This document shows positions 8,381 through 11,261 of a DNA stretch of 27,362 nt, piece by piece. Source of the stretch: a virus; the IMG/VR virus record IMGVR_UViG_3300030000_000042, positions 1 through 27,362 of that record, one strand, 5' to 3'. Below the pieces are notes generated by a model. That model was not told where the DNA came from and ran no database searches. It worked only from the letters and a program-made list of their open reading frames with translations. Position 1 is the stretch's first letter, and every line of letters starts with the position of its first letter. The translations under genes were made by a program, and so were the position numbers.

Positions 8381-9478
8381 ATGAACTGGAAATTTCTGCA
8401 GAAAAAGGATTCAATTAAGCCCAAACCGAAAAAGAGCAAAACCCGCGAATGGCTGGACGCAATAGTTTTCGCGGTTGTAGCAGCTACTATTATCCGCAGT
8501 TTATTGTTTTCTGCCTATGCAATTCCCTCAGGATCAATGGAACGCACTGAGTTAACCGGCGATTATTTATTTGTGAGCAAGTGCAGCTATGGCGCCCGGA
8601 TGCCCGTTACGCTGTTATCCATCCCTTTTACCGAGCCGGTAATGTTTGGCGTAAAAACCTATTGGGACGCCATTCAGTTACCTTATTTTCGTTTGCCCGG
8701 CTATACCGATCCCAAAAAAGGTGATATCGTGGTATTTAATAAGCCCGCAGAGGCCGACCAAAATATACCGGTCGATCAACGAACCACGCTGATCAAGCGC
8801 TGCCAGGCAGCCCCTGGTGACCTGTTGACAATTGTGAACGCCCAGGTTTATATTAACGGAAAAGCAATGCCCAATGCGCCCATGGCACAAACCAACTATA
8901 CCGTTACTACCGACGGTCGTGAAATCAATCCGCAAACTATACAGGACCTTGGCATAACGTCAAACAATGGGTTAGCGGCCAATTCTTACGAAATGCTGAT
9001 TCCTACACAAAATGTTGCAACCATTAAAAGCTTTTCGAATGTTAAAACCGTGACGAAAGAAGTACAGCCTGTGGGTAAGGCGGACACGGAAATTTTTCCG
9101 CACAACACCCGTTTTAAATGGAACCTTGACAATTTCGGCCCGCTGAGGGTGCCAAAAAAAGGCTGGACAGTTCAACTAAATGATTCGACACTTGCCCTTT
9201 ATAGGCGGGCTATTGAGGTTTACGAACATAACAAGGTTGATACCACAGGCAATACCATCGCGATTAATGGCAAAAAAGCCGGCAGTTATACCTTTAAAAT
9301 GAATTATTACTGGATGATGGGCGATAACCGCCACAATTCCTTGGATTCACGTTATTGGGGATATGTGCCCGAAGACCATATCATCGGCAAGGCAATCGTT
9401 ACAGTAATGAGCATAGACTCCACCCAGGATTTCTTCCATAAAATCCGCTGGAGCCGCATTTTTAAGCCGATCAATTAA
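8381..9478 (+). CDS. lepB: Signal peptidase I
   Basis: A 365-residue type I signal peptidase (family S26), which cleaves signal peptides at the outer face of the cytoplasmic membrane. A basic N-terminus (KPKPKKSK) precedes one membrane segment at about 25-45. The catalytic Ser is S52 in PSGSM, followed by TGDYLFVSK. The general-base Lys is K139 in [11 protein letters not shown]. The conserved [12 protein letters not shown] box is at about 313-324. All catalytic elements are therefore present, though 'MERTELTGD' and 'KRCQAAPGD' depart from the usual MEPTL..GD and KRV.GLPGD. Length fits Bacteroidota enzymes, which carry an insertion between the Lys and GDNR boxes. It lies inside a phage gene cluster instead of a housekeeping locus, so it is probably an extra copy. 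Confidence 0.9.
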
Positions 9479-9571: not shown

Positions 9572-9645
9572 GTGAACTTTGACAACGTAATTTTTTTCGG
9601 GTGTTTAGTGTAGAATAAACTAAGGGAAGGATATTTACTGGGATT

Positions 9646-9685
9646 ATCGGCTCATTATTGGCTCTTATTGGACCATATCGGTTCA
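9646..9685. promoter_or_regulatory. Repeat copy A upstream of fic: four units of 10-11 bp (candidate operator)
   Basis: This 40-bp segment matches 10759-10798 at 38 of 40 positions. Internally it reads as helical-turn units with consensus YGGNYCWTAT: CGGCTCATTAT (9648), TGGCTCTTAT (9659), TGGACCATAT (9669) and CGGTTCATTAT (9679). A weaker unit (TGGGATTAT) may precede it. It ends 30 bp before the fic ATG, where a -33 element would lie, so binding here should affect fic transcription. The winged helix of Fic itself is a candidate ligand, by inference. Confidence 0.6.
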
Positions 9686-9704
9686 TTATTAAACCAATTT
9701 TATG

Positions 9705-9712
9705 TAAGTTTG
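9705..9712 (+). promoter_or_regulatory. Possible -7 element for fic
   Basis: TAAGTTTG is a full match to the Bacteroidota -7 consensus TAnnTTTG. It ends 3 bp before the ATG at 9716, so initiation here would give a leaderless or almost leaderless mRNA. No clear TTTG lies at the expected -33 position; the repeat units occupy that place. Confidence 0.35.
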
Positions 9713-9715
9713 TAC

Positions 9716-10759
9716 ATGAGTAAGGCAAATGTGCATACCGAAACGCTGGATTTGAATTGGAAGCTGATTAATATAATCAGTGAAATAGATCGCTTTGATG
9801 CATCCTGGCAAGCTATTGAACGACGTGAGGGACAAAGTCTGAAGGAATTAAAATTTATTGCCACGGTTAGGAGCGTTGGGGCATCAACCCGCATTGAAGG
9901 CTCAAAGCTAAGCGACGAAGAAGTCGATGTTCTTTTAAGGAATATGGACATTACAAAGTTGGTGGAGCGCGACCAGCAGGAAGTAGTTGGCTATTTCGAG
10001 GTTTTGGATTTGATAGATGAAAATTATCAAGCTATACCTGTATCTGAAAATGGTCTAAAGAATTTACATAATCAGCTATTAAAATACAGTAAGAAGGACG
10101 AATGGCATAAAGGCAATTATAAGCAGCATACCAATGCAGTTGAAGCCCACCTACCTGATGGAACTACTCAAATCATTTTTCAAACTACGCCTCCTGGTTT
10201 TCCTACAGAGGATGCCATGAGGGAGATGGTGTTTTGGTATGAAACCGATATTGACACGCATGCATTAGTTAAATGTGCGCTTTTATGCTACGAGTTTGTA
10301 TCGATACATCCCTTTCAGGATGGGAACGGGCGGCTTAGCCGTCTGTTGGCGATATTATTGTTAAGGCAAAACGGTTATCAGTGGATCAGGTATGTCAGTT
10401 TTGAACATGAGATCGAAAGCCAAAAAACAGAATATTACCGGGTGTTAAGGGCTTGCCAATCCCAAAGGCCGGGAGAGGATATAACGGAATGGGTTATCTT
10501 CTTTTTATCATGCCTTCGAAATATTCAAGAGGCTTTAATGATTAAACTGGATGCCCAGGGCGTAGCGCAAAAAATTTCAGTCAAAGAAAAACAACTACTT
10601 TATATCATTGAAAGCAATCCGGGAATAAAAACCAGCGAAATATCCAAAAAACTCGATGTTTCTAATTCTACAGTTAAAAGGATGCTTGACAATCTGATCG
10701 CCGCAAAATTGATAGAACGACAAGGCAGCGGGCCGGGGTCATATTACACCTTATTGTAA
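9716..10759 (+). CDS. Fic-domain protein (predicted AMP transferase) with C-terminal winged helix
   Basis: A 347-residue protein from ATG 9716; a TTG at 9668 would extend it by 16 codons into the repeat and is less likely. The Fic core motif HPFQDGNGRLSR is at 198-209 with catalytic H198, so nucleotidyl (usually AMP) transfer to a target hydroxyl is expected. The N-terminal inhibitory motif S/TxxxE(G/N) is present as STRIEG at 57-62, which marks a class II, self-inhibited Fic protein that needs no separate antitoxin. Residues about 285-347 form a winged helix-turn-helix (IKTSEISKKLDVSNSTVKRM), so it probably also binds DNA. The target is unknown. Two nearly identical 40-bp repeats flank the gene, the second beginning on the last base of the stop codon. 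Confidence 0.88.
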   Translation: MSKANVHTETLDLNWKLINIISEIDRFDASWQAIERREGQSLKELKFIATVRSVGASTRIEGSKLSDEEVDVLLRNMDITKLVERDQQEVVGYFEVLDLIDENYQAIPVSENGLKNLHNQLLKYSKKDEWHKGNYKQHTNAVEAHLPDGTTQIIFQTTPPGFPTEDAMREMVFWYETDIDTHALVKCALLCYEFVSIHPFQDGNGRLSRLLAILLLRQNGYQWIRYVSFEHEIESQKTEYYRVLRACQSQRPGEDITEWVIFFLSCLRNIQEALMIKLDAQGVAQKISVKEKQLLYIIESNPGIKTSEISKKLDVSNSTVKRMLDNLIAAKLIERQGSGPGSYYTLL

Positions 10760-10798
10760 TCGGCTCATCATTGGCTCTTATCGGACCATATCGGTTCA
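10759..10798. repeat. Repeat copy B immediately downstream of fic
   Basis: Differs from the upstream copy (9646-9685) at two positions. It begins at the last base of the fic stop codon (10757-10759). The 10-11-bp units are at 10761, 10772, 10782 and 10792. A copy downstream is unexpected for a simple promoter operator and suggests either a second binding site or a duplicated boundary of a mobile cassette. Confidence 0.7.
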
Positions 10799-10831
10799 AC
10801 TACTTATTGCTTAATTCTAAAAAAATATACA

Positions 10832-11261
10832 AAGTACTGACAAAACAGTGTCAGCACTTATTTGAAATATTGATCCGACCTTTGTTTGGATCAGTTGTCT
10901 GAACAGGATTATTAGGATTGAACGGATTATTGGGATTTAGCCGGTTGCCTATCAATAAGGTCCTGGTTTAAAATCGGCAGCTTATAAATTGTTAAAATCT
11001 TAAAGGTCGTGTCCAGGCTAAAGTACTGACAAAACAGTGTCAGCACTTATTTGAAATATTGTTCCGACCTTTGTTTTAATCAGTTGTCTGAACACGATTA
11101 TTAGGATTGAACGGATTATCGGGATTTAGCTGGCAATCTATCATCAAGGCCCCCGTTTAAACTCAGCATCTTATAAATTGTTAAAATCTTGCAAGTCGTG
11201 TCCAGGCATAAGTACTGACAAAACAGTGTCAGCACTTATTTGAAATATTGTTCCGACCTTT
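10832..11261. repeat. 189-bp tandem repeat, 2.3 copies
   Basis: Units begin at 10832, 11021 and 11210, an exact 189-bp period; the third stops after 52 bp (11261). The two full copies are about 90% identical by eye, with the ends best conserved. Each unit starts with a hairpin, AAGTaCTGACA, loop AAACAG, TGTCAGcACTT, and continues with GTTGTCTGAACA and GATTATTAGGATTGAACGGA. The latter word resembles a dispersed intergenic sequence I remember from Sphingobacteriaceae genomes (memory only). No open frame or ribosome start is evident. With the preceding repeat it fills the 637-bp gene-free gap between fic and the head protease gene. Confidence 0.85.

Follow-up and report, generated by a model that had tools for sequence, protein, structure and literature searches.

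A gene for a SoFic-type AMPylase, carried as an accessory of a prophage, probably represses itself through an array of short direct repeats immediately upstream of its coding region. This is suggested by comparison of its sequence with those of its relatives and by analogy with characterized Fic proteins. The Fic protein may also bind a second array that immediately follows the gene, which is less certain. The window (the whole stretch of 27,362 nucleotides that was analyzed, a 27-kb virus record) is that of a prophage and contains fic between a signal-peptidase-like gene and the gene for the prohead protease; the coordinates of the relevant features are collected in Table 1.

Table 1. Features at and around fic in the window.
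Feature	Position	Strand	Remarks
Region 5′ of the array, ∼57 bp	9589..9645	.	Homology also found next to a fic-less array (G216); possibly part of what is transferred
Upstream array, putative operator	9646..9685	+	Units 9646-9656, 9657-9666, 9667-9676, 9677-9685; equivalents in 46/74 homologous loci, p ≤ 0.01
Last operator unit, over the −33 region of the predicted fic promoter	9677..9685	+	∼31-40 nt 5′ of the predicted start
−7 element (Bacteroidota), TAAGTTTG	9705..9712	+	TAnnTTTG 11-12 nt before ATG
fic, 347 aa, predicted class II Fic AMPylase with C-terminal winged helix, SoFic family	9716..10759	+	Motif, profile and model matches
Downstream array, putative second Fic-binding array	10759..10798	+	Four direct units; conserved in clade only

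The start codon of fic was placed at the ATG at 9716. The open reading frame list contains a longer form beginning with TTG at 9668, but the ATG was preferred because both the homologues and the promoter fit it. In the encoded protein, Pfam recognized a Fic domain and, at the C-terminal end, a MarR/HTH_24 winged helix, above the curated cut-off, which agrees with the original prediction that Fic carries a winged helix of its own. The inhibitory motif (S/T)xxxE(G/N) is present (STRIEG, S57-G62) and the catalytic motif HxFx(D/E)GNGRxxR is intact (HPFQDGNGRLSR, H198-R209), nearly all positions of both being invariant among 24 homologues. An AlphaFold model of the protein, with a mean pLDDT of 77.7 and lower confidence at the extreme C-terminus, had its best structural matches among Fic structures (8uqu, 4rgl, 8cil, and 3eqx), CbFic2 and SoFic included; by its motifs and modeled fold, the protein is a predicted class II Fic AMPylase. 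The SoFic profile of PADLOC (PDLC03963) matched it over its full length (E = 8e-47; 322 residues, 23-344 against profile positions 28-349 of 361). By this match, the protein is a predicted member of the SoFic anti-phage family, its role in defense likewise being predicted from the profile.

The two arrays comprise 40 bp each and are identical at 38 of 40 positions, the mismatches being at positions 11 and 24. Setting aside unrelated 189-bp tandem repeats (10831-11261), they constitute the best pair of 40-mers in the window; in five first-order Markov randomizations of the window, the best pair reached 27-29 of 40 identities. Each copy is composed of four direct units, ATCGGCTCATT, ATTGGCTCTT, ATTGGACCAT, and ATCGGTTCA, at spacings of 11, 10, and 10 bp, and matching the array against itself resulted in peaks at lags of 10, 11, 20, 21, and 31. 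The four units upstream of fic thus lie on the same face of the DNA. The downstream copy overlaps the TAA stop codon of fic (10757-10759) by one base. The two near-identical repeats around fic, their composition of four units of 10-11 bp, and the one-base overlap of the second repeat with the stop codon had all been noted beforehand and were borne out. A function of the arrays as RNA hairpin or terminator was rejected, as their folding was no better than that of shuffled sequences (z = −0.6 and −0.8). Iteron-type arrays consist of short direct repeats at approximately one helical turn, which are bound cooperatively by one protein. The arrays of the window resemble them in being helically phased direct repeats, but differ from them in being located at a toxin-defense gene, with no replication function.

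The upstream array is positioned such that it could control the fic promoter. A Bacteroidota-type −7 element (TAnnTTTG) is present 11-12 nt 5′ of the ATG in 12 of the 13 members of the window's clade, and its distance from the last unit is nearly fixed within that clade. Among homologues at 51-67%, the element was found at 11-12 nt in 20 of 32 and within 30 nt in 24 of 32; the background in control coding windows was 0.7%. Between the −7 element and the transcription start, 4-5 nt are to be expected (PMC6847099). The predicted mRNA start is, therefore, at the ATG or within about a base of it, and the fic mRNA, together with those of most close relatives, appears to be leaderless (window 9705-9718). 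Leaders of less than 10 nt are rare in Bacteroides thetaiotaomicron (∼3.7%; PMC7366714), and leaderless fic mRNAs would be of a kind rare in Bacteroidota. With the last unit lying over the −33 region, a protein bound to it should exclude RNA polymerase.

GTDB genomes and scans at the family and phylum levels supplied the relatives of fic, and the best chain of three units spaced by 10-11 bp in a 100-bp stretch was scored against dinucleotide shuffles (300 shuffles, which sets a floor of p = 0.003). Arrays just 5′ of the start codon were found at 46 of 74 homologous loci (p ≤ 0.01), which are not independent of each other. For the homologues at 64-67%, the chain statistic, with its 100-bp span, was often marginal. 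Applied 3′ of the stop codon, it was significant at 9 of 73 loci (p ≤ 0.01), all nine from the window's own clade; the downstream array of the window itself scored p = 0.06. The units are specific for the lineage (ATCGGCTCAT, ATCGTATCAT, TTTGGATAT, and AAATGGGTGT), with a YGKNT-like core in common and a spacing of mostly 10-11 bp. Eight of 11 plasmid homologues from Cyanobacteriota and Pseudomonadota also had arrays (p ≤ 0.02); by eye, L217 and L220, which are among these eight, do not have the same kind of unit. The search around winged-helix fic homologues, which had been suggested as a check, thus uncovered upstream arrays of ∼10-bp units across Bacteroidota and beyond. At three Bacillota loci (28-31%), arrays were absent. 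Upstream of position 362 of one Bacillota SoFic homologue (L222), an inverted repeat, CGGTATCA...TGATACCG, takes the place of direct units and is similar to the site of CccR (see below). No clean rule connecting single residues of the recognition helix with the sequence of the units could be discerned by eye.

Whole-genome scans of array-bearing genomes found the 40-mer only around fic. Genomes with intact loci contain two copies, one upstream and one downstream, and none elsewhere; a genome-wide regulon was rejected, with none apparent in the 12 genomes scanned. It is, thus, very improbable that the arrays are operators of another DNA-binding protein, be it a host or a phage regulator: besides the confinement of the 40-mer to fic, the type of unit follows the fic lineage (a single genome, G064, encodes two fic paralogues, each preceded by a different type), and the pattern extends across phyla and several kinds of mobile elements. 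What would fit such a regulator is that winged helices of Fic proteins can do other jobs; the C-terminal domain of E. coli Sofic is needed for toxicity (PMC12249575).

Precedent for the binding of Fic to its own promoter comes from CccR of Yersinia pseudotuberculosis, a toxic AMPylase consisting of a Fic and a C-terminal HTH domain, for which autorepression was demonstrated by footprint, EMSA, and lacZ fusion, the deletion mutant being 3.3-fold derepressed (PMC9755527). The window's Fic has the same combination of Fic and C-terminal winged helix/HTH, self-repression being putative in its case. The sites differ: that of CccR is made up of two inverted 10-bp boxes, 26 bp apart, near −35/−10, whereas the putative operator of the window is not such a pair of inverted boxes with a 26-bp spacer but is made up of four direct units spaced by 10-11 bp. 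The second array behind the gene in the window's clade is a further difference, and CccR is described as a T6SS-secreted effector, whereas fic of the window is phage cargo. Given the upstream arrays, their position over the promoter in this clade, and the example set by CccR, the findings are best explained by negative autoregulation.

Two further Fic proteins are instructive. SoFic of Shewanella (SO_4266) and Sofic of E. coli (PMC12249575) resemble the protein of the window in being single-protein class II Fic enzymes with a C-terminal domain. E. coli Sofic is a dimer and toxic when expressed, its control is described as unresolved, and no operator is mentioned in the sections consulted (PMC12249575). 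Downstream of its gene, it has a small antitoxin gene, AS1, whereas in the window the array follows directly; among the listed open reading frames (at least 60 aa), no small one in the orientation of fic lies between it and the prohead protease gene. CbFic2 of Coxiella burnetii is, like the window's Fic, a class II Fic with C-terminal HTH; binding to DNA induces its dimerization and turns the AMPylase into a deAMPylase (PMC10628234). It was assayed on random DNA only, and no cognate site is known (PMC10628234), whereas the window provides candidate cognate sites.

The downstream copy is limited to one Sphingobacteriales clade. In a tree of 71 proteins, the 13 rows labeled as this clade—a label that includes L005, with a truncated downstream copy, and L047, with three units—formed one group with full support, which indicates that the copy has a single origin. 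A copy behind the gene is, therefore, as unusual as had been assumed. Almost all core GG/TC positions are invariant over 20 upstream and downstream copies, and the downstream copy is retained across the clade down to ∼70% protein identity, in many unrelated neighborhoods whose flanks have nothing in common between contexts. Upstream and downstream copies share 34.9 of 40 positions within a locus and 32.6 of 40 across loci (permutation p = 0.0005, kinship of loci contributing). Several functions of the downstream copy were considered and rejected. It is not apparent as the operator of a second promoter: TAnnTTTG is absent on both strands within 60 bp at 9 of 10 loci, L006 with one leftward match being the single exception, and none is present beside the downstream array of the window. 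As insulator against one type of neighbor it is not plausible, since the adjoining genes occur in both orientations. Neither a recognizable terminator nor an unusual fold was found at the copy. Fixed helical phasing between the arrays, as for looping, was also rejected; their distance varies between loci (1113-1119 bp), and looping is therefore not directly supported.

Whether the downstream copy serves any function has to be weighed against the possibility, which we consider real if tentative, that it is a relic, i.e., a by-product of operator duplication or crossover, similar to the upstream copy via gene conversion. Its single origin in one clade, the lack of a promoter or unusual fold, and the losses seen in L005 and L047 would all be consistent with a relic; furthermore, the upstream copies of the window and of the sister locus L004 differ such that in the window unit 3 (GGACCAT) matches the downstream copies, which suggests conversion. 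However, the near-invariance of the core positions across the clade, to ∼70% protein identity and with unrelated neighborhoods, argues for retention. We, thus, favor the proposal that the downstream copy is a second Fic-binding array, acting via a loop or as a roadblock. No report of a second array behind such a gene was found in the open-access papers searched, which is weak evidence of novelty. The originally suggested autoregulation with operators at both ends is well supported by comparison for the upstream array, which overlies the promoter in this clade, but less so for the downstream copy.

Matches to the array were present in 22 of 399 genomes of the family, of which 11 encode full-length fic, two damaged fic (G012 and G244), and eight no full fic; G271 is probably a chance match. 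A fic tail is kept beside the array in G389 and G025 (in the latter by eye only); in G291 and G216, upstream array and promoter region are kept, but fic is gone. Window positions 9589-9715 match L202 (3229-3352) at 73%, which extends the homology with G216 to the ∼57 bp 5′ of the array. At the same prophage site, G026 carries a single array of approximately six units, the right flank of which is as in the fic-bearing sister L004. The conjugative element of G064 is arranged integrase-array-fic-array, that of G049 and G247 integrase, a different gene, and then one array; to the left of this array, ∼14 bp are as at the upstream copy, and its body and right flank are as at the downstream copy. In the conjugative element (L199, 7380-7419), the integrase reading frame ends within the upstream operator. 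Recombination between the two direct repeats would explain the fic-less single-array alleles; a dedicated cassette is not required.

A mobile fic cassette, inserted and excised site-specifically via terminal direct repeats, is improbable for further reasons. Fic with both copies does occur in prophage, conjugative-element, transposase-flanked, and defense-gene contexts, and the empty site with a single copy postulated for such a cassette does exist (G026, G049, and G247), though deletion between direct repeats accounts for it equally well. However, no recombinase consistently accompanies the repeat, target duplications were not observed, and the boundary is not fixed, as homology extends upstream ∼57 bp past the repeat in one case. 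The solo arrays of G389 and G025, lying beside fic remnants, represent decay. Moreover, both fic and the repeat are missing from 80 related prophages, in which the repeat was, therefore, not a pre-existing target.

These 80 related viral contigs, many of them partial, contained no detectable relative of fic and no near 40-mer (best match, 15 mismatches), and fic is therefore regarded as an accessory gene of the prophage. An initial scan of viral contigs, aimed at close relatives of fic and at the 40-mer pattern, yielded none either. The signal-peptidase-like gene (window 8381-9478) is a gene of this phage group and not of the host, as it was found in approximately 20 of the 80 contigs. A different open reading frame occupies the position of fic in a related prophage (L111, 4695-6010), which suggests a hotspot for accessory genes. 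The 189-bp tandem repeats downstream of fic each contain the palindrome TGACAAAACAGTGTCA and, after it, CCGACCTTTG. Many related prophages have comparable modules in the interval from the signal-peptidase-like gene to the prohead protease gene; they look like arrayed phage promoters or activator sites.

In the mechanism we propose, each unit would be bound by the C-terminal winged helix of one Fic molecule, so that the domains are lined up along a single face of the DNA. Fic on the upstream array would block RNA polymerase, and this repression would keep the amount of toxic enzyme low until infection titrates Fic, removes it, or alters it. Less surely, dimeric Fic might also occupy the downstream array, either bridging the two (a loop of ∼1.1 kb) or acting as a roadblock for transcription. 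The two direct repeats would permit loss of fic, leaving one array. One aspect is left unexplained by the model: when a dimer with two-fold symmetry sits on direct repeats, one of its two DNA-binding domains is unaccounted for, unless it is used for bridging. A variant, rather unlikely and prompted by analogy with CbFic2, is that both arrays form a DNA leash; Fic dimers would bridge them and loop around their own gene, the DNA-bound enzyme would be non-toxic, as in CbFic2, and destruction or displacement of the arrays at infection would both derepress fic and free active enzyme.

What silences and releases SoFic-type defense toxins is stated as open in PMC12249575. The conserved, lineage-specific arrays are candidate binding sites across phyla, which makes both the regulation of these enzymes and the control of AMPylation by DNA testable.
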